Shown one piece after another: positions 14,264 to 29,111 of a stretch of 32,565 nt of DNA. The stretch comes from Ignavibacteriota bacterium (GTDB lineage: Bacteria; Bacteroidota; Ignavibacteria; UBA10030; UBA6906). The DNA lies in contig PMCM01000112.1 of NCBI GenBank assembly GCA_003154155.1, positions 1 through 32,565 on the forward strand. Reading direction: 5' to 3'. A program made the position numbers and the translations under genes. The notes under the pieces are model-generated. The model saw nothing but the letters and a program-made list of their open reading frames with translations, was not told the origin of the DNA and made no database searches. Every line of letters starts with the position of its first letter. Positions within the stretch are counted from its first letter, which is position 1.

Positions 14264-15688
14264 ATGGCCCTCCCACCGCACATACTCGAGCAGGTTCTGG
14301 ATCTCGTTCCGGATATGTGTTTCGTGTTGCGCGCAGACCTGACGATTCTCGACTGTAACCGGAGAGCGCGCGCGGTGACCGGACTTGCGGCAACACTTCA
14401 CGGGACCGTAACATTTCCCGCGCTCCTCACATCTGATTCCCCCCGCCCCCCGTTCGATACGCTCAACAGCAACAACAGCTACAGCGAGACTGAGGTGAGA
14501 TTTCGCCAGACGGCCCGCCGGGCGATGGATGCACTCGTGTCCGTCCGCTGCATCGAGGAAAACGGTGAATCCCTGTTTTTTGTGTTCGGACGCGATATCT
14601 CGGAATCTAAGCAGCGCGAACTCGACCTGCTCCGTTTTTCGAATGTGGTACACTATACGGTGAATCCCATTCAGATCACCGACGCGCAGGGGAAGATGAT
14701 CTACGTGAACCCGGCGTTCGAACGGTCGACCGGGTACAGCAAGGAAGAGTTGATCGGGCGCAACCCCAGCGTCATCTCAAGCAAGAAGTACACGAAAGAG
14801 TTCTGGACCCGGGTGTGGGATGAGATCAGCTCCGGCAAGGTGTGGAACGCCGAAGTGGAAAATCGCAGGAAAGACGGCTCGCCGATATTTGCCCAGCTGC
14901 TGATTTCCCCCATCATGGATATGGACGGGAAGGTGATCGGGTATCTCGGATCGCATCGCGATATCACCGAACAGAAGGCGCTGGAGCAGCAGCTGATGCA
15001 TTCGCAAAAGATGGAGAGCATCGGCACGCTCGCCGCCGGCATCGCCCATGAGGTCGGCAACCCCCTGACCTCCATCTCTTCGATCGTCCAGGTGCTGCAA
15101 CGTACCATCGACGATGATTTTGCGCGCGACAAGCTGGGCATGGTGCAATCCCAGGTCCACCGCATTACCAAGATCATCCGCGACCTCGTCGATTTTTCCC
15201 GGCCATCGAATTACCAGATGCAACCCACCGACGTGACGAAAGTGCTGACCGATGCGGTGGAAATCGTCAAGATGGGGAAGAAGGCCAAACAGGTGACCTT
15301 CTACACGCACGTGCGCCAGCAGATCCCGCTGCTGTCCCTGGTGCCTGATCAGCTCGCCCAGGTGTTCATCAACATTCTGTTGAATGCCGTCGATGCCCTG
15401 CAGGGCAAGAAGGGATCCATCACCACGGAATTTGAACGGGATGACGACTCGGTGAAAATCACCATTGCTGATGACGGCGAAGGCATTCCTGCCGAGAACC
15501 TGACCAAGATTTTTGAACCCTTCTTTACGACGAAACGTGTCGGAGAGGGGACCGGGCTGGGCCTTTGGGTCAGCTACGGCATCATCAGGAGTTTTCGTGG
15601 CGACATCGCGGTTTCGAGTGAGCGGGGGAGAGGAACCTCCTTCTGCATCCAGGTACCCCTGAATCCGAAGGACTATTCACATGGCTGA
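14264..15688 (+). CDS. PAS-PAS sensor histidine kinase, NtrB-like, cytoplasmic
   Basis: This 474-residue kinase has no signal peptide or membrane segment, so it probably senses a cytoplasmic cue. Residues about 5-115 form a divergent PAS-like domain ending GRDISESKQ. Residues about 122-238 are a clear PAS/PAC module (NPIQITDAQGKMIYVNPAFE to GSHRDITEQK). The dimerisation/phosphoacceptor helix carries AHEVGNPLTS with His262. The ATPase domain has the N box NILLNAVDAL, the G1 box DDGEGIP, EPFFTTKR, and the G2 box GEGTGLGLW. Its last eight bases overlap the start of the next gene, so it is the cognate partner of the sigma-54 activator. No haem- or flavin-binding residues can be assigned to the PAS domains by eye. 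Confidence 0.93.
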   Translation: MALPPHILEQVLDLVPDMCFVLRADLTILDCNRRARAVTGLAATLHGTVTFPALLTSDSPRPPFDTLNSNNSYSETEVRFRQTARRAMDALVSVRCIEENGESLFFVFGRDISESKQRELDLLRFSNVVHYTVNPIQITDAQGKMIYVNPAFERSTGYSKEELIGRNPSVISSKKYTKEFWTRVWDEISSGKVWNAEVENRRKDGSPIFAQLLISPIMDMDGKVIGYLGSHRDITEQKALEQQLMHSQKMESIGTLAAGIAHEVGNPLTSISSIVQVLQRTIDDDFARDKLGMVQSQVHRITKIIRDLVDFSRPSNYQMQPTDVTKVLTDAVEIVKMGKKAKQVTFYTHVRQQIPLLSLVPDQLAQVFINILLNAVDALQGKKGSITTEFERDDDSVKITIADDGEGIPAENLTKIFEPFFTTKRVGEGTGLGLWVSYGIIRSFRGDIAVSSERGRGTSFCIQVPLNPKDYSHG

Positions 15689-17045
15689 ATCGATCTTGAT
15701 CGTCGATGACGAGGAAATCATCCGGGAATCGCTTTCCTTCGTTCTGGCAAAAGAAGGTTACCGGGTGCAGGACGCGGCGAACGGCCGCCTCGCGCTCGAG
15801 AAAGTCCGGGAGCAGGCATTTGATCTCGTCATCACGGATCTGGAAATGCCGGAGATGAAGGGGATCGAGCTGCTGGAGCAGGTGACGCTTCACAGCCCGG
15901 AAACGATGGTGGTCATCATCACGGCATATGGGTCCATCGACACCGCAATTGCGGCGTTGCGCAAGGGCGCCGTGGACTATATTCTGAAGCCCGTGGAGTT
16001 TGATGAGCTTATCGTGAAAATCAGCCGCCTTCTCGCGAGCCGGCGGTTGACGGTGGAAAACAAACTCCTGCGCGGCGAATTGCACCGCCAGTACAATTTC
16101 GACCAGATGATCGGTCAGAGTCCGGCAATGCAGCGTGTGTTTGAGACCATCAAGAAGGTCGCTTCGACGGACGGCACCGTGCTGATCAACGGGAAAAGCG
16201 GGACGGGAAAAGAGCTCGTTGCGCGCGCAATTCACTTTTCCAGCCGGCGCTCAACACGTCCCTTCATTGCGGTCAACTGCGGCGCGGTGGTGGAGAACCT
16301 CTTCGAAAGCGAACTCTTCGGCCACCGTCGCGGTGCGTTTACCGGGGCAACCATGGATAAGGAGGGGTTCTTCAAGGCGGCTGACGGGGGGACGATCTTT
16401 CTGGACGAAGTCAGCGAGATACCATTCCATCTGCAGGTGAAGCTGCTCCGCGCCATCGAGTTGAAAGAGATCACACCCGTGGGGATGTCGATGCCGTTGA
16501 CCGTCGATGTCCGCATTATCGCATCGACGAACAAGAACCTCCAAAAGGAAGTCGAGGCCGGCCGGTACCGCGAGGATCTCTTCTACCGGCTGAACATCGT
16601 CGAAATCAACCTGCCGTCGCTCACCGAGCGCGTGGACGACATCCCTCTGCTCGTCCAGCATTTCGTTGCGAAGTATGCACGGGAGATGACCAAGGACGTT
16701 CACGGTGTTGATACCGATGTCATGAAATGCCTGATCGGCCACGCGTGGAAGGGAGAAATCCGCGAGCTGGAGAACATCATCGAGCGGGCCGTGATCTTTG
16801 CCGAAGGATCCATCATCACGAAGAAAGAGCTGCCGGCGTTTTTCGATCAACGAACCGATGCCATCTACTCGTTTGATGCGCGGCGGTCGATGAAGGAAGC
16901 GGTGGACGATTTCGAACGCCAGTACATCGGACATGTCTTGCGCACCAACCAGTTCAACAAAGAACTAACGGCGAAGGCCTTGAAAATCAGCCTCTCATCG
17001 CTCTACAGAAAGCTCGAAGAATTGAACATCCCTTCGCAGGGTTAG
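15681..17045 (+). CDS. NtrC-family sigma-54-dependent response regulator
   Basis: This 454-residue activator has three domains. The receiver (1-120) has the acidic pocket DDEE, phospho-acceptor Asp53 and Lys103. The AAA+ sigma-54 interaction domain (about 140-375) has a Walker A GKSGTGKE at 171-178, the sigma-54-contacting GAFTGA at 218-223, Walker B GGTIFLDE at 236-243, and the arginine-finger region GRYREDLFYRLN. A Fis-type helix-turn-helix closes the protein (KELTAKALKISLSSLYRKLEE, about 427-447). The residue after the first Walker A glycine is lysine where most relatives have glutamate. It is translationally coupled to the kinase. Candidate sigma-54 promoters lie downstream at 17161, 18277 and 26836, making those genes likely targets. 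Confidence 0.95.
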   Translation: MAESILIVDDEEIIRESLSFVLAKEGYRVQDAANGRLALEKVREQAFDLVITDLEMPEMKGIELLEQVTLHSPETMVVIITAYGSIDTAIAALRKGAVDYILKPVEFDELIVKISRLLASRRLTVENKLLRGELHRQYNFDQMIGQSPAMQRVFETIKKVASTDGTVLINGKSGTGKELVARAIHFSSRRSTRPFIAVNCGAVVENLFESELFGHRRGAFTGATMDKEGFFKAADGGTIFLDEVSEIPFHLQVKLLRAIELKEITPVGMSMPLTVDVRIIASTNKNLQKEVEAGRYREDLFYRLNIVEINLPSLTERVDDIPLLVQHFVAKYAREMTKDVHGVDTDVMKCLIGHAWKGEIRELENIIERAVIFAEGSIITKKELPAFFDQRTDAIYSFDARRSMKEAVDDFERQYIGHVLRTNQFNKELTAKALKISLSSLYRKLEELNIPSQG

Positions 17046-17060
17046 GAATTTCCGCTCCGG

Positions 17061-17085
17061 CATTCCCACAATTCGGAATGTTTTT
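17061..17085 (+). terminator. Intrinsic terminator after the response regulator
   Basis: A 6-base-pair stem (CATTCC with GGAATG) and 8-base loop are followed directly by TTTTT, 15 bases past the stop codon. The stem is short but the U-tract is good. Confidence 0.55.
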
Positions 17086-17160
17086 CCCGTCCCCCTCCCC
17101 GAAATCGGCGAATTTATAGTGTTTTTCGCTATGTTTGGAGACTTTTTCTCTCACTCCCTT

Positions 17161-17175
17161 TGGCACAACTATTGA
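17161..17175 (+). promoter_or_regulatory. Sigma-54-type promoter of the universal stress gene
   Basis: TGGCAC (17161-17166), five bases, then TTGA (17172-17175) matches the -24/-12 consensus TGGCAC-N5-TTGC except for A in place of the final C. The predicted transcription start near 17187 is about 22 bases before the ATG. Two more sites of the same form lie at 18277 and 26836. Confidence 0.6.
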
Positions 17176-17194
17176 AAAACAGGCAGTTGTGCCA
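17161..17194. repeat. Perfect 10-bp inverted repeat over the stress-gene promoter
   Basis: TGGCACAACT (17161-17170) is repeated exactly in inverse as AGTTGTGCCA (17185-17194), separated by 14 bases. The left arm contains the -24 element and the right arm spans the predicted transcription start. It could be an operator for a dimeric regulator. Confidence 0.6.
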
Positions 17195-17208
17195 CAGCGG
17201 ACGAGCAG

Positions 17209-17691
17209 ATGATTTTTCTCAAGAAGATTCTCGTCACGACGGATCTCTCCCCCCACTCGCTGGCGGCGGTGGAGTATGCACTTTCGTTTGGGACTCTGTA
17301 TACCTCGCGGCTCTACCTGCTTCTCGTGATGGAAAAGAGAGAAGCAGTGCATGCACGGGAAGCACATGTTCATTTCCGGACCGAGGAAGAGGCAACGAAG
17401 GCACTCGAGGAGTTCGCGCGCAATAACGTCCCGCATGATGTCCAGATGAATCTCGTCGTGCGGAAAGGAAATCCCGTTGAAGGGATCCTGCGTTTTGCGG
17501 GAGAGGAAGGGATCGACATGATCGTCATGGCCACACATGGTCATACCGGTCTGCGCCACATACTGATGGGCAACGTCACGGAAAAAGTCGTGCGCCAGTC
17601 CCGCATCCCGGTGCTGACAGTGAAACCCCGTCCGTTCCGGGAGAACGATATTCAAGATGAGGACGTGGAGAAAGATCTCCACCTCCGATGA
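17209..17691 (+). CDS. Universal stress protein (UspA family)
   Basis: The 160-residue product is a single Usp domain. It has KKILVTTDLSPHSLAAVEYA at the start, a middle VRKGNPVEGILRFA helix, then GIDMIVMATHGHTGLRHI and a C-terminal PVLTVKP strand. The nucleotide loop reads ATHGHTGLRHILMGN, differing from the G-x2-G-x9-G(S/T) consensus at the first glycine (A) and last position (N), so ATP binding is uncertain. A short acidic tail (ENDIQDEDVEKD) follows. It lies behind a sigma-54-type promoter and 22 bases ahead of a receiver-like gene, between the NtrB/NtrC pair and the cytochrome cluster. A role in energy-stress or respiratory signalling is plausible but inferred. Confidence 0.9.
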   Translation: MIFLKKILVTTDLSPHSLAAVEYALSFGTLYTSRLYLLLVMEKREAVHAREAHVHFRTEEEATKALEEFARNNVPHDVQMNLVVRKGNPVEGILRFAGEEGIDMIVMATHGHTGLRHILMGNVTEKVVRQSRIPVLTVKPRPFRENDIQDEDVEKDLHLR

Positions 17692-17713
17692 GAAGGCTGC
17701 GGGAACCCGGTCG

Positions 17714-18145
17714 ATGAAAAACCTTGCACATACAGAACCAGGAAAACCGTCGGTCTCGCCGGAAGGCGAATCCGCGGAAACCAAGAAAACAATCCTGCTG
17801 TACAGTCCGGATCTGAATTTCTGTTTCAGTCTTTCCATGTTGTTCCAGGATCGTTTCAACGTCATCACGACCACCAATGTCGGGATGTTGGATCGACTTG
17901 TGGCCGACTATTCCGCTGACCTGACGTTGGTGGATGCGGTGCCTTCGGAAAAACTGATCGAGCGGATCGAAGGACTGCGATCAATCAATCCGCGACTCCC
18001 AATCATCCTCCTGTACGTCTACAATTCCAAGGAGATGAACCTCGATCGGAAAATCCGGGCGCACGTCGACTCCGTGTTCTACAAGCCACTTGAAATTGCG
18101 CTCGTTTCCAGGAGAATAGAGGAATTGCTCATCCACGCGTCGTGA
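17714..18145 (+). CDS. Degenerate receiver-domain protein
   Basis: This 143-residue protein has a polar N-terminal extension of about 23 residues followed by one receiver-like fold without an output domain. The first strand reads TILLYSPDLNF, so two of the usual acidic-pocket aspartates are replaced by serine and proline. The position of the phosphorylated aspartate is kept (Asp74 in LTLVDAVP), as is the lysine (Lys124 in VFYKPLE). It may be unphosphorylated or use another signal. The start at 17714 was chosen because the longer frame overlaps the stress gene by 35 bases; GGGAA lies upstream. It probably shares the stress-gene transcript. Confidence 0.75.
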   Translation: MKNLAHTEPGKPSVSPEGESAETKKTILLYSPDLNFCFSLSMLFQDRFNVITTTNVGMLDRLVADYSADLTLVDAVPSEKLIERIEGLRSINPRLPIILLYVYNSKEMNLDRKIRAHVDSVFYKPLEIALVSRRIEELLIHAS

Positions 18146-18291: not shown

Positions 18292-18327
18292 ACGTATTCT
18301 CTGAATAACAAGGGGTATGTGGGGTTC

Positions 18328-20463
18328 ATGGTGAAACGGTTCCTCCTGCTGTTGGTGCTCGGGTTGATTGCTGCGCCGTTTGCCGTTGCGCAATCGGATG
18401 CGGATTGTCTCGGCTGTCACGGCGATGCATCACTCAGCATGTCGCGTCAAGGGAAGAACATCTCCCTGCATGTTGACGCCGGGGCATTCGGAAAATCGGC
18501 GCACGCCGACCTGGGATGCGTCGCCTGCCATGAAGGCTTCAACCCCAACGAATTGCCCCACGCCGCAACGATCACCCCGGTAAACTGTTTCTCCTGCCAC
18601 CAGGACCACCAGCTTGAGCACTATGCGCAGAGCGTCCATGGTAAGGTCATTGAGGGAAAACCGGTGGCTGCCGGGTGTGTCGATTGCCACTCGAAACATG
18701 CGATCACGAAGATTACCGACCTCGAGCCGGGCAGGAGGAAGGAATTCGACCTTGCGCTCTGCTCGCGCTGCCACGGCGACGTTGCCGCACATTATCTCAT
18801 GTCGGACCACAGCAGGGCGTTTGCGAGCGGTGTCAAAGGCGCTCCCGGGTGCATTGATTGCCATGGCGAGCATGCAATCAGAGCCGGCAGCGACTCGCTG
18901 TCTGCGACATCCCGGATGCATGTCTCGGCGACATGTCTGAAATGCCATCTCGACAATCCCGAAGTCCGGGCGCGTGTCGGCCCGTCGGCCGGATTCATCG
19001 CCAGTTACGAGCAGAGCGTCCACGGCCAGGCGATCAAGAACGGAAATGAAGCGGCGGCGACGTGCATCGATTGTCACACCGCACACGAGGTGAAGAAGGG
19101 CGCCAACCCGGCGTCCGGCGTGGCGAAACAGAATATCGCATCGACATGTGGCCAGTGCCACGGCGATATCCGCGATCAGTATGAGGAGAGCATCCACGGA
19201 AAATCGCTCGCGCGCGGGATTACCGCTGCGCCGACATGCACCGACTGCCACGGTGAACATTTTATCCTCTCCCCGAAGGACGCGCGTTCGCCTGTCGCGG
19301 CGGCAAATGTTTCCACACAAGTCTGCTCCCCCTGCCACGCGTCGGTCAAGGTCACACAGAAGTTCGGCATGGCGAACGACCGCTATCAGTCGTTTGCCGA
19401 CAGTTACCACGGGCTTGCCAACAGCGCGGGCTCGGTGGTCGTGGCGAATTGCGCGAGCTGCCACGGCGTGCACGACATCAAGCCGTCGTCCGATTCCACT
19501 TCGCGCATTCATCCATCGCACCTTGCCCAGACATGCGGCAAGTGCCACCCGGGGGCGAACACCAATTTCACCCGGGGTGCGGTGCATGTCATCCCTGCCT
19601 CAGGTCAGGACTCGGTTCTGTATTTCGTGGCGAACTCGTATATCGTCCTGATTTTCGTGATCATCGGCGGGATGGTCCTCCACAACATCCTGGATTTTCT
19701 GAAAAAATCGCGCCGCCAGCTGGCCTACCGGCGCGGCGAGTTGCAGCGATCGCATGTTGCCCACCGGCTCTACGTCCGGATGACCGTACAGGAGCGGATA
19801 CAGCATGGGACGTTGCTTGTAAGTTTCATTACCCTGGTGCTGACCGGTTTTGCGCTGCGCTATCCGGATGCCTGGTGGGTTGCATCGATCCGCTCGATCA
19901 GCACCTGGATGTTCGAGTTCCGGGGGATCGCGCACAGGGTCGCCGCAGTCGTGCTTGTTACGGCAAGCCTGTACCATATCTACTACGTGTTGTTTGTGCC
20001 TCGCGGCAAGCAACTCATGCGGGATCTCCTGCCGCGCAGGCAGGATATTGCCGATGCGGTGGATATCCTGAAGTACAATTTCGGTTTTTCCAAGAGCAAG
20101 CCCCGTTTTGGCCGTTTCAGCTATATTGAGAAAAGCGAGTACTGGGCGCTTGTCTGGGGGACGTTCATCATGGGGCTTACAGGCGTTATCCTCTGGTTCG
20201 ACAACACATCGCTCAATCTGATCACAAAATTGTGGTGGGATGTGGCCCGGACGGTGCACTATTATGAAGCCTGGCTGGCAACGCTCGCGATTATCGTCTG
20301 GCACTTCTACTTTGTCATATTCAACCCGGACACCTACCCGATCAATCTGGCGTTTTGGAAGGGGACGTTAACCGAGGAAGAGATGGAGGAAGAGCATCCG
20401 CTGGAATTGGAAGAGATCAAGCGGAAGGAGATGGAGCAGGAACATCAGACGCCGAAAGCCTGA
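18328..20463 (+). CDS. 13-haem cytochrome c fused to membrane cytochrome b (CbcL-like layout)
   Basis: The 711-residue protein begins with a signal peptide (MVKRFLLLLVLGLIAAPFAVA). Residues 27-406 carry thirteen CxxCH sites (for example CLGCH at 27, CFSCH at 87, CIDCH at 175, CGQCH at 274, CGKCH at 403), so this half is periplasmic. The C-terminal half has about five membrane helices (roughly 432-455, 490-511, 537-557, 606-624, 647-666) with histidines 493, 536, 550, 644 and 659 as candidate b-haem ligands, as in cytochrome b561/FdnI-type domains. This resembles CbcL of Geobacter, a quinol-oxidising fusion with nine c-haems. A GTG three codons upstream is possible, but ATG 18328 gives the better signal peptide. 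It opens the electron-transfer cluster. Confidence 0.9.
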   Translation: MVKRFLLLLVLGLIAAPFAVAQSDADCLGCHGDASLSMSRQGKNISLHVDAGAFGKSAHADLGCVACHEGFNPNELPHAATITPVNCFSCHQDHQLEHYAQSVHGKVIEGKPVAAGCVDCHSKHAITKITDLEPGRRKEFDLALCSRCHGDVAAHYLMSDHSRAFASGVKGAPGCIDCHGEHAIRAGSDSLSATSRMHVSATCLKCHLDNPEVRARVGPSAGFIASYEQSVHGQAIKNGNEAAATCIDCHTAHEVKKGANPASGVAKQNIASTCGQCHGDIRDQYEESIHGKSLARGITAAPTCTDCHGEHFILSPKDARSPVAAANVSTQVCSPCHASVKVTQKFGMANDRYQSFADSYHGLANSAGSVVVANCASCHGVHDIKPSSDSTSRIHPSHLAQTCGKCHPGANTNFTRGAVHVIPASGQDSVLYFVANSYIVLIFVIIGGMVLHNILDFLKKSRRQLAYRRGELQRSHVAHRLYVRMTVQERIQHGTLLVSFITLVLTGFALRYPDAWWVASIRSISTWMFEFRGIAHRVAAVVLVTASLYHIYYVLFVPRGKQLMRDLLPRRQDIADAVDILKYNFGFSKSKPRFGRFSYIEKSEYWALVWGTFIMGLTGVILWFDNTSLNLITKLWWDVARTVHYYEAWLATLAIIVWHFYFVIFNPDTYPINLAFWKGTLTEEEMEEEHPLELEEIKRKEMEQEHQTPKA

Positions 20464-20521: not shown

Positions 20522-20530
20522 AGAGGTTCA

Positions 20531-21067
20531 ATGAAAGCACTCACTGTAGTTCTGGCGATCGTCCTGACCGTGGCTCTTCTTGCTGGAACCTCGGTTGCCG
20601 AGAACAAGTTTGTCGGCACCAAATCCTGCGCTATGTGTCATAAGGCGAAGGACAAGGGCGAAGCATTCACCATCTGGCAGAAGAGCGCGCACGCGAACGC
20701 TTTTAAGACGCTCGAAGGAGATGCGGCAAAGAAGATCGCCAAGGAAAAAGGCATTGCCAAGCCGCCGTCAGAAGCCCCGGAATGCCTGGCCTGCCATGTG
20801 ACGGGCGGCGGAGCTGCGAAGAATGTCGACGCCACATTCGACATGAAAGAAGGCGTGACGTGTGAGGCATGCCACGGCGCAGCTTCCGGATTCAAAATGA
20901 TTCACACGAAGGCCGAGAACAAGGCGAAAGCAGTGGAAGCCGGCCTGTTGACGGGTGACAAGGCAAGGATCTGCGAGACCTGCCACAATGCGAAGAGCCC
21001 GACGTTCAAGGGTTTCAAGATGGCAGAGATGTGGGCAAAGATCGAACACAAGCTTCCGAAGAAGTAG
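20531..21067 (+). CDS. Tetrahaem cytochrome c554-type protein
   Basis: The 178-residue product has a signal peptide (MKALTVVLAIVLTVALLAGT, cleaved near SVAE) and four CxxCH sites: CAMCH (33), CLACH (85), CEACH (111) and CETCH (148). The opening FVGTKSCAMCHKAKDKGEAF and the spacing resemble the cytochrome c554 family of small soluble periplasmic tetrahaem proteins. Known c554 takes electrons from hydroxylamine oxidoreductase in nitrifiers, but relatives occur widely and no such partner is here. Its place between two membrane quinol-oxidising cytochromes suggests a shuttle carrying electrons across the periplasm to the 14-haem protein. It lies 67 bases after the 13-haem gene and is followed by a hairpin that may reduce transcription of the genes beyond. 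Confidence 0.9.
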   Translation: MKALTVVLAIVLTVALLAGTSVAENKFVGTKSCAMCHKAKDKGEAFTIWQKSAHANAFKTLEGDAAKKIAKEKGIAKPPSEAPECLACHVTGGGAAKNVDATFDMKEGVTCEACHGAASGFKMIHTKAENKAKAVEAGLLTGDKARICETCHNAKSPTFKGFKMAEMWAKIEHKLPKK

Positions 21068-21163: not shown

Positions 21164-22663
21164 ATGGCAAAACGCAGACTACCTGATTTGCTGTACAACC
21201 CGATGAGTATTTTCGGCGGTGTACTGGCGGCTGTCTGTTTGTTGACGATCATTTTTCTGACCTGTGTGGATCTGTTTCAGTACCAGCCCCCAGCGTACAT
21301 CGGCATCATCTCGTACGTTCTTCTTCCTGTTCCCCTGTTGCTGGGGCTCTGTGTGCTTGTTCTCGGTGTCCTGCGGGAACGCCGTCGCCGGCTCCGGGGC
21401 GAGGCCGCAAGCAGGTTGCTGTTCACGATCGATCTGAATCTTCCGCGGCAGCGGGCCGCGATGACGCTCTTTTCGGCCGTTGCCTGCATCGTGCTCCTGT
21501 TTACGGCATACGGGAGCTACCGGGTGTTTGAATGGACAGAATCCGTCGCGTTCTGCGGCACCACCTGCCACACGGTGATGGAGCCGGAGTACACCGCCTA
21601 CCAGGGTTCCCCGCATGCCCGGGTCAAATGCGTTGAGTGCCACGTGGGTTCGGGCGCCGGCTGGTATGTCCGGTCCAAGCTTTCCGGGGCGTATCAGATT
21701 TATGCGGTCATGACCAACGTCTATCCGCGGCCGATCCCGACGCCGATCCAGAACTTGCGTCCTGCCCAGGAGACCTGCGAACAGTGTCACTGGCCTTCGC
21801 ATTTCTCCGGCGAAAAGAAGCTCGTCAACCGGTATTTCAAGTCGGATGAACAGAACACTCCCTGGACGATAGCGTTGATGATGAAAATCGGCGGCGGCAA
21901 CGAAGCGCGCGGGCCGTCGGGCGGCATCCACTGGCATATGAATATTGCCAACGAAGTCCGGTATGTGGCGGTTGACACCTTGCACCAGAATATTCCGATC
22001 GTCTCGATCCGTAACCGGAAGAGCGGCGAGGTGACCGAGTATGTAGCCGAGAGTGCGGCGGCGGATGCGGGGAAGCTCCGTGCACAGTCGTGGTCCACCA
22101 TGGACTGCATCGATTGTCATAACCGGCCTTCGCACATCTATCGCCCTCCCATGCGTATTGTGGACCAGAGCATGGCGGTGGGACGGATTTCCCCGGCGCT
22201 TCCGCATGTGCGCGAACAGGGGATTGCGATTCTTTCGCAGCCATATGCGACGACCGCGGGTGCCGTCGACAGCATCGCGCTGCAATTGCGTGCCTTCTAT
22301 GCGTCCTCCTATCCTCTGATCGCGGCATCACAGGGTGCGCTGGTGGACGCCGCGATTGCGGAATTGCAGGCGCAGTACCGGAGGAACTTCTTCCCGACCA
22401 TGAACGTCAAGTGGAGCGCCTATCCGAACAACATCGGCCACATGACGGATCTGGGTTGTTTCCGGTGTCATGACGGGAAGCACGTCAGCGCCGACGGCCG
22501 CAGGATCTCGAAGGACTGCAACAGCTGTCACACCATTGTGTACCAGGGAACGGAGCCCGTGCCGCAGACGCTGACGGTGGCAGGCCTTCCGTTCCAGCAT
22601 CCCGAAGACATCGGCGATGCCTGGCAGCAGACCAATTGTGTCGAATGCCACTCGGGACTATAA
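21164..22663 (+). CDS. 7-haem NapC/NirT-family quinol dehydrogenase (ImcH-like)
   Basis: The 499-residue product has three N-terminal membrane helices (about 14-36, 46-70, 98-118) and then a periplasmic cytochrome domain. Six CxxCH sites (CVECH 156, CEQCH 205, CIDCH, CFRCH, CNSCH and a terminal CVECH) join one atypical CGTTCH (131-136) right after the third helix, where NapC/NrfH relatives have their quinol-proximal haem. It is followed by TVME, keeping a nearby methionine. Three helices, seven haems and a NapC core match the layout of ImcH, the inner-membrane quinol oxidase of Geobacter used with high-potential acceptors. The start ATG 21164 follows TTGAGG; the longer frame runs into the hairpin. 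It probably passes electrons to the porin-cytochrome trio downstream. Confidence 0.88.
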   Translation: MAKRRLPDLLYNPMSIFGGVLAAVCLLTIIFLTCVDLFQYQPPAYIGIISYVLLPVPLLLGLCVLVLGVLRERRRRLRGEAASRLLFTIDLNLPRQRAAMTLFSAVACIVLLFTAYGSYRVFEWTESVAFCGTTCHTVMEPEYTAYQGSPHARVKCVECHVGSGAGWYVRSKLSGAYQIYAVMTNVYPRPIPTPIQNLRPAQETCEQCHWPSHFSGEKKLVNRYFKSDEQNTPWTIALMMKIGGGNEARGPSGGIHWHMNIANEVRYVAVDTLHQNIPIVSIRNRKSGEVTEYVAESAAADAGKLRAQSWSTMDCIDCHNRPSHIYRPPMRIVDQSMAVGRISPALPHVREQGIAILSQPYATTAGAVDSIALQLRAFYASSYPLIAASQGALVDAAIAELQAQYRRNFFPTMNVKWSAYPNNIGHMTDLGCFRCHDGKHVSADGRRISKDCNSCHTIVYQGTEPVPQTLTVAGLPFQHPEDIGDAWQQTNCVECHSGL

Positions 22664-22714: not shown

Positions 22715-24025
22715 ATGAAAGGAACACGCCTCCTCGGCCTCGCTCTCCTGGTGACGCTCGGAGCGGCGATGGCTGCAGCCCAGTTGGTGACGGGGCGATT
22801 GGTGACCTCCTTCTACGCCTGGGAGCGCTTCGACACCGTCGGCACGTCGCAGCAATCGGTGCGGGCATTCCAGGCCGTCCAGTTGTCGATCGCCCAGGGT
22901 GATGTGTCCCTGAACACCTCCCTCATGGGTACCTCCAACCTCGTGGGCGCATTCGGCGATGTCGGCAGGGTGCGCTTCTACAATCTGTTTCTCAGCTGGC
23001 TCAACATCGGCAAGATGGTCGACCTCCATCTGGGCCGTCAGTTCGTGTATGCCGGGGTCGGCAATGGCACGATCGACGGCGTGATGGCCCAGGCGCATTT
23101 CCTGCAACGGGCCGTTACGGTGACGGGTTTCGGCGGCGCCACGGTGGGGCCGGACTTTACCGGTGTGCGGAGCGACATGCACGACAATTACCACTTCGGC
23201 GGGCAGGTGCTCACGACGCTGATTCCGAACACGCGGTTGGGATTGAGCTATGCCAACCGGCGTGAAGCCCGGGATCCGTACTGGACGTTGCGGACACGGG
23301 ACACCACCTATGCCGCGTACGCGTACTATGTCGCTCCCTATGCCGATGCAGAGGAGCTGGGCAGCGCGGATGCGTCGTACACCCTGCGAGACCGGCTTTC
23401 GGTCTACGGCCGGTACGACTATGACTTCAAGAACGACCGGACATCGCGGGCACAGGGAGGGGTGCGTGTGAATGTGACCGGGGCGCTGACGCTGACCGGC
23501 GACTACATCCACCGGATTCCGGTGATCTCCTACAATTCCATCTTTTCCGCCTTCGTGGCGAATGCCGTCGACGAGCTGGAAGGGGGTGTGGAATACGGCT
23601 TCACGCCGCTTCTCCGCGCCTTCGGGCGCGTCGCCAGCGTGAAATACAGCGACGACAAGAGCACCCGGTGGTCGTTCGGGGTGAACAGCGGCTATGGAAG
23701 CCTGAGTTACTCGGGCAGTGACGGGTATGCGGGCGAGCTGCAGTCGCTGAGCATCCAGGGGACATACCCGCTGTTCGGGCGGGTTGTTGTTCCCAGCGCG
23801 GGCATCTCGTACGCCTCGTACCGTTTGAGCGCAGAAAGCTCACGGGACAACGCTCTGGGCATAGTGGTCGGGGCGATGGTGCGTCCGGCCACGGCGTTCA
23901 GTTTCGACGTGCAGGGACAATGGCTCAGCAACAAATTACTGCAGCAGGACATGCGCCTGCAGATCAGGCTGATGTACTGGTTCGCACAACGGCTCTCGAT
24001 TTTTAATGGGGAGGGTAAGCAATGA
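22715..24025 (+). CDS. Outer-membrane beta-barrel, porin of a porin-cytochrome complex
   Basis: The 436-residue product starts with a signal peptide (MKGTRLLGLALLVTLGAAMA, ending AAAQ) and has no haem motif. The remainder alternates short amphipathic strands rich in Y, F, G and S with turns, for example LHLGRQFVYAGVG, LGLSYANRREARD, LSVYGRYDYDFKND, LTLTGDYIHRIP and LQIRLMYWFAQRLSIF, as expected for an outer-membrane barrel of perhaps 16-20 strands. It does not end in the usual aromatic residue. Its stop overlaps the next cytochrome gene as ATGA, and a multihaem lipoprotein follows, which is the gene order of porin-cytochrome conduits such as OmbB-OmaB-OmcB. The role as haem-sheathing porin is inferred from this context. 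AGGGAA lies upstream of ATG 22715. Confidence 0.8.
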   Translation: MKGTRLLGLALLVTLGAAMAAAQLVTGRLVTSFYAWERFDTVGTSQQSVRAFQAVQLSIAQGDVSLNTSLMGTSNLVGAFGDVGRVRFYNLFLSWLNIGKMVDLHLGRQFVYAGVGNGTIDGVMAQAHFLQRAVTVTGFGGATVGPDFTGVRSDMHDNYHFGGQVLTTLIPNTRLGLSYANRREARDPYWTLRTRDTTYAAYAYYVAPYADAEELGSADASYTLRDRLSVYGRYDYDFKNDRTSRAQGGVRVNVTGALTLTGDYIHRIPVISYNSIFSAFVANAVDELEGGVEYGFTPLLRAFGRVASVKYSDDKSTRWSFGVNSGYGSLSYSGSDGYAGELQSLSIQGTYPLFGRVVVPSAGISYASYRLSAESSRDNALGIVVGAMVRPATAFSFDVQGQWLSNKLLQQDMRLQIRLMYWFAQRLSIFNGEGKQ

Positions 24026-25230
24026 AGCGGCGATCCTCTGTCATTCTCCTGGTCGCGGCCGGCGTGCTCGTATCGGCGGCGGTGGCGTTTCGTCCGACTG
24101 CCCGGCCGGGGTGGACCGTGCCGGACGACAGCAAACAGTTGAAGTTTTCCCACAAGACACATATCGAGGGCGCCGGCATCGGCTGCGAAACATGCCACCC
24201 GAATGCGTCCGCCAGCAAACTTGCCAGCGACAATCTGCGCAGCGTGCACGACAACTGCACTTCCTGTCATGAAGAGCAACTGAACAACCAGTGCGATTTC
24301 TGTCACAAGGATCCGGAGAACATCCAGGTCGCCCCTGCGCAGTTGCGCGAGCTGAATTTCTCGCACGAGCGCCATTTGAATATGAAGAATGTGCAGTGCA
24401 CCACGTGCCACACCCATTTGAACGAGGTAGATGTTGCCGGGCAGGAGAACATGCCCGACATGGCGACGTGCGCGACCTGCCACAACGACCGGAATGTCAG
24501 CAACGCCTGCGAATCGTGCCACACGAGCGTCGCGCAGTTGATACCGCCCGATCATCTGCAGGCGGGCTTCAAGAGGGACCACAAGAATCTTACGCGGCTG
24601 GGGGCCATGGAAACGAACTGTGCCACCTGCCACACGCAGAGTTTCTGCGGTGAATGTCACGATCCGGGTGCCGTCATCCAATTCGGGAAGGGCGCGATGA
24701 TGAGTGATCCCACCCCGCGGGTCTTCCCCGGCACGACCGCTCCGCAGATGAATCTGGAGCGTGCGCACGATCTGAACTACCGTTTCACGCACGGTATCGA
24801 TGCGAAATCCAAGGCCTCCGAGTGCTACACCTGTCATTCCGCCCAGGAGTTCTGCGGTGAATGCCACGAGGCCGGCGACAACATCACGTCCCGTTCCATC
24901 AAACCGGCGTGGCATCTGGGAGCCGGCTTTACGACCCTCGGCGTCGGGAGCGGTGGCGGGCGGCATGCCGAACTTGCGCGGCGCGACATTGAATCATGCG
25001 TCAGCTGCCACGATGCTCAGGGGAACGACCCGGTATGCATCACCTGTCACACCGATGGTGACGGCATTCGCGGCACGGATCCGCGGACACATCCTGCGGG
25101 CTACATGCAAGGCGAACACGGGCCGTGGCACGTCAACGGCGGCGCCACATGCTATAACTGCCATACCGACCTGAATGCCCATCCCGGCGGGGTCAAAGGC
25201 AGAAACTTCTGCGGCTATTGCCACGGCTAA
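24022..25230 (+). CDS. 14-haem periplasmic cytochrome c of the porin-cytochrome complex
   Basis: The 402-residue product starts MKRRSSVILLVAAGVLVSAA, a signal peptide or uncleaved anchor without a lipobox cysteine. It contains fourteen CxxCH sites, in order CETCH, CTSCH, CDFCH, CTTCH, CATCH, CESCH, CATCH, CGECH, CYTCH, CGECH, CVSCH, CITCH, CYNCH and CGYCH, the last ending the protein. Several free histidines in FSHKTH- and FSHERH-like segments fit sixth-ligand positions of cytochrome c3/c7-type packing. Overlap with the porin gene by four bases suggests fixed stoichiometry. By analogy with OmaB or MtrA it would sit inside or below the barrel and accept electrons from periplasmic carriers. The haem count exceeds that of OmaB (8) and MtrA (10). 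Confidence 0.9.
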   Translation: MKRRSSVILLVAAGVLVSAAVAFRPTARPGWTVPDDSKQLKFSHKTHIEGAGIGCETCHPNASASKLASDNLRSVHDNCTSCHEEQLNNQCDFCHKDPENIQVAPAQLRELNFSHERHLNMKNVQCTTCHTHLNEVDVAGQENMPDMATCATCHNDRNVSNACESCHTSVAQLIPPDHLQAGFKRDHKNLTRLGAMETNCATCHTQSFCGECHDPGAVIQFGKGAMMSDPTPRVFPGTTAPQMNLERAHDLNYRFTHGIDAKSKASECYTCHSAQEFCGECHEAGDNITSRSIKPAWHLGAGFTTLGVGSGGGRHAELARRDIESCVSCHDAQGNDPVCITCHTDGDGIRGTDPRTHPAGYMQGEHGPWHVNGGATCYNCHTDLNAHPGGVKGRNFCGYCHG

Positions 25231-25246
25231 GGAGGGCGGAACACTC

Positions 25247-26641
25247 ATGAGAGCATTACTGCGGTTGAGGGGTACCGGCATTCTCATCGCGCTCCTGTTG
25301 GTAGGAGCCGCGGGATGCAGCAAACTGAAAGATGATCTTCCGGCGGCGGACAAGACCGCATCGCAAATCCATGACCCCGGCTGGAACGATCCGACATCGG
25401 CCAATTTCCACGGCGTGGTGCTGCATGCAGACAACTACCAGTACAACCAATGCGTGTCCTGCCATGCCAAGTCTTTTGGCGGCGGCACGAGCGGCGTGGG
25501 CTGTTTCACCTGCCATCAGTCGTTCCCCCACAAAGCCGGATGGTCCGATACCTCATCAACGAACTTTCACGGCAAATTCCTGCGGCTCGGCCTTGGTCAA
25601 TTGACCGATTGCGCATCGTGTCACGGCGCGGCGTTTGACGGCGGCACCAGCGGAAAATCGTGCTTTACGTGCCATGCGTCGTATCCGCATAATGCCGGGT
25701 GGATTGATCCCGCATCGGCCGTCTCTCACGGCAAATTCCTGAAAGCAAAGAGCTGGGATACCGGCGAATGCGCGCGCTGCCACGGCGCGAACTTTTCGGG
25801 CGGTACCAGCGGAAAATCCTGCTTCACCTGTCACCCTGCATACCCGCATACGGTGTTTGCGTCATCCTCGGGACACGCGGGATACCTGTATACCCAGGGC
25901 TATCCCCTGGCGCAGTGCAAAACCTGCCACGGGGCTTCGTATGCCGGCGGCACCGTTGTGAATGTGTCGTGTAGTTCCGCCGGATGCCATGCGGACAATA
26001 CGGGAACGCCGAAGTCTCCCGAAGCCTGCAACACGTGTCACGGTCAGTTCCTTGCGTCGGCGAGTGACGCCCTCTCCGCGGCGCCCCCCAAGAGTGTGCT
26101 GGGTGACTCTGCGACCACGGTGCGCGGTGTGGGTGCCCATGCGAAACATTTGCTGTCCGGAACGCTCGGGAAGAGCGTCAAGTGCGTCGAATGCCATACG
26201 GTCCCCACGACGTTGTTTGCGACCGGCCATGTCGATACGCAGTTGCCGGCGGAAGTTGTGTTCAATGATACGCTGGCGCGCCTGGTCACTGGTGGCGGCA
26301 CATTCGTTCCGAACCCGACATACAATGCCACATCCCTTACGTGCGCGAACACATATTGCCACGGCAAATGGCAGCTCAAGAAGTCGGGTCCGTACGCGGC
26401 ATTCTTCACCACCGATTCCGTCATGGTAGGCGCAGCGAACGCACCGTCATGGACCAGCGGCGCTTCAGGCGCGGCGTGCGGGAGCTGCCACGGACTGCCG
26501 CCAACCGGCCATCCCCCATCCTCCCTGAGCGATTGCCAGAACTGCCATGGCACCGTGGTGAACGGCTCGGGCCAAATCATCAACCATGCGTTGCACATCA
26601 ACGGCAAGGTCAATGTCTTCGGCCAGGAGCTTGCCTTCTGA
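25247..26641 (+). CDS. 13-haem outer-membrane lipoprotein cytochrome with CxxxxCH sites
   Basis: The 464-residue product has a lipoprotein signal with acylated Cys24 (LLLVGAAGCSK), eleven CxxCH and two CxxxxCH sites (CSSAGCH at 242, CANTYCH at 366), thirteen predicted haems. Residues 47-204 are three 53-residue repeats, each with a haem near the middle and a CFTCH after GGTSG; a diverged fourth copy runs to about 247 and ends in the first CxxxxCH. Mixed CxxxxCH/CxxCH proteins are known from Geobacter outer-membrane cytochromes. GGAGG lies 11 bases before the ATG, which is 16 bases after the 14-haem gene. It is probably the cell-surface terminal of the conduit, the counterpart of OmcB. A strong terminator follows. 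Confidence 0.9.
   Translation: MRALLRLRGTGILIALLLVGAAGCSKLKDDLPAADKTASQIHDPGWNDPTSANFHGVVLHADNYQYNQCVSCHAKSFGGGTSGVGCFTCHQSFPHKAGWSDTSSTNFHGKFLRLGLGQLTDCASCHGAAFDGGTSGKSCFTCHASYPHNAGWIDPASAVSHGKFLKAKSWDTGECARCHGANFSGGTSGKSCFTCHPAYPHTVFASSSGHAGYLYTQGYPLAQCKTCHGASYAGGTVVNVSCSSAGCHADNTGTPKSPEACNTCHGQFLASASDALSAAPPKSVLGDSATTVRGVGAHAKHLLSGTLGKSVKCVECHTVPTTLFATGHVDTQLPAEVVFNDTLARLVTGGGTFVPNPTYNATSLTCANTYCHGKWQLKKSGPYAAFFTTDSVMVGAANAPSWTSGASGAACGSCHGLPPTGHPPSSLSDCQNCHGTVVNGSGQIINHALHINGKVNVFGQELAF
25385..25858 (+). repeat. Three 159-bp coding repeats (53-residue dihaem units)
   Basis: Units at about 25385-25543, 25544-25702 and 25703-25858 encode the pattern D-x-x-S, HGKFL, CxxCHGAxF, GGTSGKSCFTCH, YPH. 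Units two and three agree most closely (GGTSGKSCFTCH is identical). Internal duplication appears to have built up the haem chain. Confidence 0.85.
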
Positions 26642-26761: not shown

Positions 26762-26835
26762 CCCCATTGGCACGGTCCAATTCATCCGAATGAGCCCCTT
26801 TTCAGGGTTTTGGCGTAGTCCTGACCCGGTTGAGG

Positions 26836-26850
26836 TGGCACACAACTTGA
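26836..26850 (+). promoter_or_regulatory. Sigma-54-type promoter of the haem-lyase operon
   Basis: TGGCAC (26836-26841), five bases, TTGA (26847-26850). It is the same variant as at 17161 and 18277. The predicted start near 26862 leaves a 24-base leader containing GGAG before ATG 26886. Confidence 0.6.
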
Positions 26851-26885
26851 CATTTGAAAGGTACCCAAGCATCTGTGGAGTATCA

Positions 26886-29111
26886 ATGACCGTTCTTGCA
26901 CATCTTGTTCTTTTGCTGGCCCTGTCAACCTCTGTGGCCGCCGGCGTGTTCTACTTCCGCGCCGCCTCCACAAACGATATGAGGTTGACTCTCCCCCGCT
27001 CCACGCTTCTTGCCAGTATCGTCCTTGTTCTCACCGCATCTGCCGTTCTGATCCTCCTGATCCTTCAGCACGATTTCAGCAACGGCTATGTGTACGGCTA
27101 CAGCGACCGGTCGCTTCCGCTTCACTATCTGCTGTCCAGCTTCTATGCGGGCCAGGAGGGCAGCTTTCTGTTCTGGAGCGTGTGTTCCGCCCTCATTGCA
27201 CTGGTTCTGATGCGGTCACGCAAAGGCACCCCGGCTGTCATGACCGTGTTTCTTCTTGCGCACTCGCTGCTTCTCCTCCTTGTGGTGGCAAAGTCGCCCT
27301 TCCGGTCGATCTGGGAGGTGTATCCCCAATTGCCCGCCGGGCAGTTGCCGGCGGACGGCCACGGCCTCAATCCGCTCCTGCAGAATTTCTGGATGGTCAT
27401 TCATCCCCCCGTGCTGTTTCTGGGATTTGCCTTGATGTCCGTGCCATTCAGCCAGGCCATCGCGGCGCTCTGGACAAAGGACTTTGACCTCCTTCCCCGT
27501 CAGGGTATGGGAGGGGTGTTGGCCGCCGTGCTGGTGCTCGGTCTGGGGATTATGCTTGGCGCCTACTGGGCCTACGGCGTGCTTGGCTGGGGCGGCTACT
27601 GGGGGTGGGATCCTGTGGAGAATTCCTCCTTGATTCCCTGGCTCACCGGCGTTGCGCTGGTGCATACGCTCGTGGCCCAGCGGCGGACCGGCAAGTATCG
27701 ACGAACGAATTTTCTGCTGGCCATCTCCTCCTTCTTTTTGGTCATCTACAGCACGTTTTTGACGCGAAGCGGGATTCTCGGCGACGCATCCGTCCATTCG
27801 TTCACCGATCCCGGTTCCACCGTTTACTGGCTCCTCCTCGTGTTCCTCGGCCTCATCGCTGCCGTCGGCATCACGATGCTGGTCCTCCGCCTGCGTGAGC
27901 TTTCGCCCGCACACGCCGCTTCGGGCTGGCTCACACGCGAGACCCTGCTTGCCGGCGGGGCCATCATGCTGCTGCTGAGTGCGGTCGTTATCCTCTTCGG
28001 CACAAGTCTTCCGATTTTTTCGAAAACGCGCGTGGAGCCGGCATTCTACGACAGTACCAACCTTCCTCTTGTCATCATCATGGCGCTCCTGATCGGCGTG
28101 AGTCTCCTGACGCAATGGGAGGAGCAGGATCTCGCCACGAGTGCACGGAAATCGTGGAAGGCCCTCCTGGCGGCCCTGCTGATGACGCTCGTGATCGTTG
28201 CCCTGGGAGTACGCGACGGGCTGAGCGCCGCGCTTGTCTTTACCGCCCTGTTTGCGATCCTCGTCAACGTCGAAAGCGGCGTACAGGGATGGCGGGGCGG
28301 CCTCCTCCTGCTGGGAGGAAAGCTGGCGCACATCGGCATCGCGCTCTTCCTGATCGGCGTGATCAGCTCCGGCAGATATAATGAGACCGCCCGGGTGAGC
28401 CTGCCGCTGCATCAGCCCGTTGAGACACTTGGGCATGCGCTGACCTACGACGGTTATACGGTCCGCCCCGACGGGAAATATGACTTCCAGGTGACGGCGA
28501 TGGCGGGCACGCGCCGCTTCGTCCTGCACCCCGTGATGTTCGATGCGCCCCAGCAGGGTGTTATGCGCAACCCGGACATCGCATCGACAATGACGTCGGA
28601 CTTTTACATTTCCCCGCTCTCCCTGGAAAATGCCGATGACGGTGCGACGGAAGAGGAACACGAGCTTGCCAAAGGCGTTGCCGCGATGGTGGGCGACGCG
28701 CGTCTCACGTTCGTCACATTCGACATGGGCCCGGACGCCGGAAGCAGCATGAGTCATGGCGGAACGATCACCGTCTCCGCAGTGGTGGACGTGCAACGGG
28801 GGAGCGCGAAGGAGACGATCCGGCCGTCGCTCACCCGGAAACAGTCGGGCGAGACAGTGTATGGCGCCGCGCACTCAGACCTGCTGGGCACGGAGGTACG
28901 GCTGCTCAAAATGAATATCGGCATGGAGGCAACGTCGCCCTCGCGCGTCGTTGTGGCATGTACCCGGTCTGACGCCGTGCCAGCACGGACGGAAGTGCTG
29001 ATGGTGGAGGCGAGCGTCAAGCCGTATATCATACTGTTGTGGGGTGGCACGGTAACGATGTTGTTGGGATGTGTACTGGCGATGATCAAACGCATGAGGG
29101 AGACAGCATGA
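26886..29111 (+). CDS. ccmF: CcmF-like cytochrome c haem lyase
   Basis: This 741-residue multi-span membrane protein belongs to the haem-handling CcmF/CcsA family. It has the CcmF N-terminal block SLPLHYLLSSFYAGQEGSFL, a conserved histidine in MVIHPPVLFLG (173), the tryptophan-rich haem-presenting WWD loop from W235 (WGGYWGWDPVEN), and a second histidine in ASVHSF (304). About a dozen hydrophobic helices precede a soluble domain at roughly 505-705, and a final helix closes the protein. CcmF attaches haem to apocytochrome CxxCH motifs in System I. The other ccm genes are not in this window. The frame is open 32 codons upstream, but that region contains the sigma-54-type promoter, and GGAG supports ATG 26886. 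Placement directly after 51 haem sites fits a maturation role. Confidence 0.92.
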   Translation: MTVLAHLVLLLALSTSVAAGVFYFRAASTNDMRLTLPRSTLLASIVLVLTASAVLILLILQHDFSNGYVYGYSDRSLPLHYLLSSFYAGQEGSFLFWSVCSALIALVLMRSRKGTPAVMTVFLLAHSLLLLLVVAKSPFRSIWEVYPQLPAGQLPADGHGLNPLLQNFWMVIHPPVLFLGFALMSVPFSQAIAALWTKDFDLLPRQGMGGVLAAVLVLGLGIMLGAYWAYGVLGWGGYWGWDPVENSSLIPWLTGVALVHTLVAQRRTGKYRRTNFLLAISSFFLVIYSTFLTRSGILGDASVHSFTDPGSTVYWLLLVFLGLIAAVGITMLVLRLRELSPAHAASGWLTRETLLAGGAIMLLLSAVVILFGTSLPIFSKTRVEPAFYDSTNLPLVIIMALLIGVSLLTQWEEQDLATSARKSWKALLAALLMTLVIVALGVRDGLSAALVFTALFAILVNVESGVQGWRGGLLLLGGKLAHIGIALFLIGVISSGRYNETARVSLPLHQPVETLGHALTYDGYTVRPDGKYDFQVTAMAGTRRFVLHPVMFDAPQQGVMRNPDIASTMTSDFYISPLSLENADDGATEEEHELAKGVAAMVGDARLTFVTFDMGPDAGSSMSHGGTITVSAVVDVQRGSAKETIRPSLTRKQSGETVYGAAHSDLLGTEVRLLKMNIGMEATSPSRVVVACTRSDAVPARTEVLMVEASVKPYIILLWGGTVTMLLGCVLAMIKRMRETA

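Follow-up and report, generated by a model that had tools for sequence, protein, structure and literature searches.

One gene in the window, the whole 32,565-nucleotide stretch of Ignavibacteriota DNA that was analyzed, encodes a real, strongly conserved membrane protein in which a 13-haem c-type cytochrome is fused to a cytochrome b domain. We put at roughly 78% the probability that this protein sits in the inner membrane as a quinone-reactive cytochrome, works in the manner of Geobacter CbcL, and feeds an extracellular acceptor through a conduit encoded in the same cluster. This reading draws on the domain anatomy of the protein, the conservation of its haem motifs and ligands, and its gene neighborhood, all directly observed (Table 1). 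Why does it matter? Electron export seems to be a capacity of many Ignavibacteria and of uncultured bacteria related to them, but the inner-membrane step of this process has hardly been described. A clade of 13-haem, five-helix proteins encoded beside an ImcH-like gene provides a clear marker for that step. The cluster is also a candidate for having two quinol gates, of kinds that operate in different potential ranges in Geobacter, feeding one conduit.

Table 1. Features of the fusion gene and its surroundings (window coordinates)
Feature	Position	Strand	Details
PAS histidine kinase and NtrC-type response regulator	14264..17045	+	Upstream; often kept upstream in relatives
13-haem c/cytochrome b fusion protein	18328..20463	+	711 aa from ATG 18328
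Signal peptide of fusion protein	18328..18390	+	Residues 1-21, end AVA-Q; cleavage site by inspection
Periplasmic c domain, 13 CXXCH	18406..19548	+	Residues 27-407
TM0, with invariant H452, joining c domain to b domain	19612..19731	+	Residues 429-468
FdnI-like four-helix cytochrome b core	19786..20322	+	Residues 487-665; H493, H536, H644, H659, plus H550
Small tetrahaem cytochrome, cytochrome c554 family	20528..21067	+	PF13435 2e-18, 4 CXXCH; candidate periplasmic carrier
ImcH-like protein	21164..22663	+	Three N-terminal TM helices, NapC/NirT stretch, one CX3CH and six CX2CH
Outer-membrane beta-barrel, putative conduit porin	22715..24025	+	Signal peptide, about 24 strands; AlphaFold pLDDT 73, Foldseek
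14-haem c-type cytochrome, exported	24022..25230	+	14 CXXCH, hydrophobic N terminus
Putative lipoprotein cytochrome	25247..26641	+	11 CX2CH and 2 CX4CH; TIGR01904; lipobox-like LLVGAAGC by inspection
CcmF/NrfE-family haem lyase	26790..29111	+	PF01578 8e-29, PF16327

The stop-bounded reading frame of the fusion gene runs from 18319 to 20463 on the plus strand, with the ATG at 18328 as the likely start and a GTG at 18319 as the alternative. Residue numbers count from the ATG, except for the Pfam span of PF01292, which is given in GTG numbering. The N terminus is hydrophobic and forms a helix (residues 2-15) in the AlphaFold model, the basis for assigning a signal peptide. Pfam recognizes cytochrome c7/c3 domains and Ni_hydr_CYTB (PF01292, 2e-15, residues 488-669), and NCBIfam adds weak similarities, both below cut-off, to DmsE-type decahaem cytochromes and to the formate dehydrogenase gamma subunit (TIGR01583). 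One polypeptide thus carries both the 13 c-haems and the cytochrome b domain, as the first-pass annotation had proposed. Scans for promoters and terminators gave nothing beyond the shuffle level, and PADLOC gave no match. The window's genome, which is 94% complete, has no second copy of the gene; NrfA (PF02335), tried as a partner for nitrite reduction, had no match there and was set aside. A literature search found no papers on the Ignavibacteria 13-haem gene itself.

How secure is the count of 13? All 26 cysteines of the protein sit inside CXXCH motifs, which start at residues 27, 64, 87, 117, 145, 175, 203, 246, 274, 304, 333, 375, and 403; in 5,000 residue shuffles of the same protein the mean was 0.06 and the maximum 2. 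Across 75 aligned sequences, 11 non-motif histidines of the c region are invariant and a further one, H98, is present in 89%. These are candidate distal ligands, the last of them being H420, just beyond the c domain, and because they are so well kept the alignment suggests bis-His ligation for nearly all of the c-haems. The c domain of CbcL likewise has bis-His haems, with ten non-motif histidines for nine haems (PMC9129911). In a Foldseek search of the PDB, no structure matched the 13-haem c domain as a whole.

The membrane domain resembles FdnI, the cytochrome b556 subunit of formate dehydrogenase N, in both sequence and fold. In the AlphaFold model (mean pLDDT, 85), long helices span residues 429-468, 487-511, 528-556, 599-623, and 634-665, five in all, and Foldseek aligns the membrane domain with FdnI (1kqf_C; TM-score 0.69 by target length, E 3e-4) and with the cytochrome b of hydrogenase-1 (score 0.62). 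The first-pass annotation had counted five candidate b-haem histidines in five helices. The helices are borne out by the model, but the invariant histidines in the 75 sequences number six: H452, H493, H536, H550, H644, and H659. Four of these (H493, H536, H644, and H659) align with the four FdnI histidines that ligate its b haems, so the alignment gives no sign of ligand loss. The other two, H452 in TM0 and H550 in TM2, lie beyond the FdnI ligand set. TM0 itself is also an addition relative to FdnI, as is the c domain, which takes the place of the iron-sulfur partner subunit. No sixth transmembrane helix was found in any of 79 sequences of the 13-haem clade.

The closest described proteins are those of the CbcL/MtrH/MtoC kind, published in 2018 with 3 to 23 motifs from 15 phyla, including Ignavibacteriae, and with a lowest sequence identity of about 29% within the set (PMC6295460). 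The window protein shares with them a single chain in which an exported N-terminal multihaem c domain precedes a C-terminal HydC/FdnI-like cytochrome b with conserved histidines (PMC6295460, PMC9129911), the indication of bis-His haems, and clustering with genes for conduit cytochromes. It has 13 c-haems, more than the nine of CbcL (Geobacter sulfurreducens GSU0274; PMC9129911), as the first-pass annotation had noted. Neither the haem number nor the layout is new, though: with so wide a range already published across so many phyla, the idea that this architecture had gone undescribed largely falls. It has five transmembrane helices rather than the six of most CbcL/MtrH/MtoC proteins, a non-exclusive feature since four published members also have five. 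It further differs in that six of its membrane histidines are invariant, where three are reported as conserved in the published family, and in having an ImcH-like gene beside it in most genomes. The 13-haem protein is therefore a variant of this kind, set apart by a near-fixed count of haems, by its five helices, and by the additional invariant pair H452 and H550. We have more confidence that it works like CbcL than that it is a CbcL, because the six-helix feature is absent and CbcL was compared by its published description rather than by a sequence score. A more distant parallel is Mco of ANME archaea, in which a membrane cytochrome b and a multihaem cytochrome also empty a membrane carrier pool (PMC9012536). 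Mco differs in being archaeal, in consisting of a VhtC-like cytochrome b and a 7- to 11-haem cytochrome encoded by two genes, in using methanophenazine as carrier, and in having fewer haems.

The fusion gene is the first of a same-strand cluster whose genes are separated by small gaps or overlap. Two genes downstream of it, the ImcH-like protein has the features described for ImcH (PMC6295460): three N-terminal transmembrane segments, a NapC/NirT-like stretch at the third (PF03264 at 109-197), and a CX3CH motif (CGTTCH), kept in relatives, together with CX2CH motifs in the described range of five to nine. Downstream sequence of 7.5 kb or more is available for 47 relatives; 43 of these have an ImcH-like gene nearby, in 41 cases on the same strand. 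Such adjacency may exist outside this clade, judging from the consecutive accession numbers of the ImcH and CbcL homologues of D. acetexigens (Desulfobacterota; PMC12133095). From 22715 to 26641, a barrel and exported multihaem cytochromes are encoded together in the layout of a porin-cytochrome conduit, the 14-haem gene overlapping the porin gene by 4 bases. The barrel has no Pfam match, and when homology to MtrB/OmbB was asked, Foldseek returned general porins and exporters. The lipoprotein cytochrome would lie at the cell surface, to judge from its lipobox-like site. Near the fusion gene in the 47 relatives, the porin was recognized by similarity in 13 and the 14-haem gene in 10, within flanks of at most 10 kb. 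CbcL/MtrH/MtoC homologues (PMC6295460) and porin-cytochrome clusters (PMC7399161) were already known from Ignavibacteria. The haem lyase encoded last in the cluster is perhaps dedicated to these cytochromes, and the upstream kinase/NtrC pair may be linked to the fusion gene in regulation. The stretch from 14264 to 18145 encodes the PAS kinase, the NtrC-type regulator, a universal stress protein, and a receiver-like ORF, and the same order occurs in many relatives.

Together, the cluster would make a plausible electron route from the inner membrane to the surface, for which we infer a quinol site, a direction of flow, and a set of partners. Electron exchange between the FdnI-like b domain and (mena)quinol would take place close to the b haem on the cytoplasmic side, from which electrons would pass to the second b haem, the periplasmic face, and the 13 c-haems. 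The c domain would then unload, probably via the co-encoded tetrahaem c554-like carrier or else by direct contact, to the conduit of porin, 14-haem cytochrome, and 13-motif lipoprotein, and so to the extracellular acceptor. The ImcH-like protein would act as a second quinol oxidase into the same conduit. If the quinone site is placed as in FdnI, near the cytoplasm-side haem, then quinol oxidation coupled to electron export would oppose the membrane potential. ImcH-type enzymes oxidize quinol on the periplasmic side. In Geobacter, CbcL serves low acceptor potentials and ImcH high ones (PMC12307469). A difference in the side of the quinol site would fit this split, and by analogy the same may hold for the 13-haem protein.

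Could electrons instead flow inward? The conduit might bring them in from Fe(II) or partner cells, with the fusion protein reducing quinone as FdnI does and as has been proposed for MtoC. FdnI reduces menaquinone, and the b domain is FdnI-like. CbcL/MtoC homologues are also reported from Fe(II) oxidizers, and these proteins have been tied to both directions, with no sequence feature that tells the two apart (PMC6295460). The window's genome encodes two haem-copper oxidases, a possible sink for incoming electrons, so other respiratory roles for the fusion protein are possible. However, the group to which the co-encoded ImcH-like protein belongs has so far been tied only to quinol oxidation (PMC6295460), and the Ignavibacteria include iron reducers and members of anode biofilms (PMC7399161). 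We therefore regard uptake as a doubtful, though serious, alternative to the export of electrons from quinol.

Does the number of haems mean anything? They might have multiplied neutrally, by duplication of c7/c3 units and without functional consequence, and relatives with 12, 16, 17, or 18 motifs, like the published range for the family, show that the count can vary. Yet exactly 13 CXXCH motifs occur in all 36 of the window protein and the 35 close relatives examined, and in 78 of the best 80 of at least 576 stretches encoding relatives in a species collection, two sets that share some contigs. The exceptions among the 80 are from Calditrichaceae (17 motifs) and Eisenbacteria (12), and remoter relatives have 16, 17, or 18. 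Identity among the counted 13-haem sequences is only roughly 47-70%, and a count held fixed over that distance points to a constraint on haem number; neutral expansion is accordingly rather improbable. The near-constant count thus marks a subfamily, as the first-pass annotation had suspected, and a b-domain tree groups the 13-haem proteins in one clade with support of 100/100, although the bootstrap had not fully settled. By record title, the best 80 are mostly Ignavibacteria/Bacteroidota with some Gemmatimonadota and a single record each from Acidobacteria, Calditrichaceae, and Eisenbacteria. These relatives are mainly metagenome bins, so the lone odd assignments may be binning errors. None was found on a plasmid. 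In one relative (L083), ORFs with 13, 22, 40, and 10 CXXCH motifs lie in a row about 4-9 kb upstream of the 13-haem gene, the 40-motif ORF spanning 1040 aa.

It is very unlikely that the fusion protein serves a soluble periplasmic reductase, for nitrite, for example, with the neighboring cytochromes in the same pathway and no extracellular transfer: the c region is weakly similar to NrfB and DmsE-family cytochromes and the cluster includes a CcmF/NrfE-type haem lyase, but a porin and exported multihaem cytochromes, one a putative lipoprotein, are encoded there as well.

Many relatives carry a second, related module (for example, at L067:12101-15028 and L100:11998-14850), which consists in most of them of a 19-haem c protein with the cytochrome b encoded by a gene of its own downstream. 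It is present in 32 of the 47 relatives with long downstream flanks and was not found in the window's genome. In eight relatives (Gemmatimonadota, some Bacteroidota/Ignavibacteria, and Calditrichaceae) it is a single chain of about 930-1,020 aa. This sister module has the same domain order as the 13-haem protein, a TM0 histidine equivalent to H452, the FdnI ligands, and H550, the last two retained by the b chain in the split form. Its own features are the 19 haems, the two chains in most genomes, and a sixth, C-terminal helix in 41 of 43 b domains (33/34 split and 8/9 fused), by which it comes closer in helix number to the six-helix CbcL than the 13-haem protein does. Its b domains form a separate clade, also supported at 100/100. 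In one relative (L087), two tandem ImcH-like genes, at 15064 and 17124, lie downstream of this module and of the 13-haem gene.

What, then, does fusion contribute? The first-pass annotation supposed that it removes a docking step. This idea has to be given up: CbcL is already one chain, yet its electrons reach PpcA by way of a transient complex with a Kd of 57 uM (PMC9129911), and the sister module occurs in both forms, so a single chain is not required by the architecture. The split falls after TM0, and in each of the 34 split c chains examined the final helix carries the H452-equivalent histidine. The c chain is therefore membrane anchored whether the module is split or fused, and no new step is obvious from joining the chains. 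The one-chain and two-chain sister modules offer a natural test of what fusion does add.

The point of most interest is the role of H452 and H550. One tentative proposal, which we think more likely wrong than right, is that they hold a third b haem, or make up a quinol site of their own, where the c and b domains join on the cytoplasmic side. In that case the proteins of this five-helix, 13-haem clade would be quinol oxidases with three b haems, and together with the ImcH-type oxidase of the same cluster they would give a single conduit two entry gates. When the 19-haem sister module is made as two proteins, the pair of histidines is kept, one coming from each.
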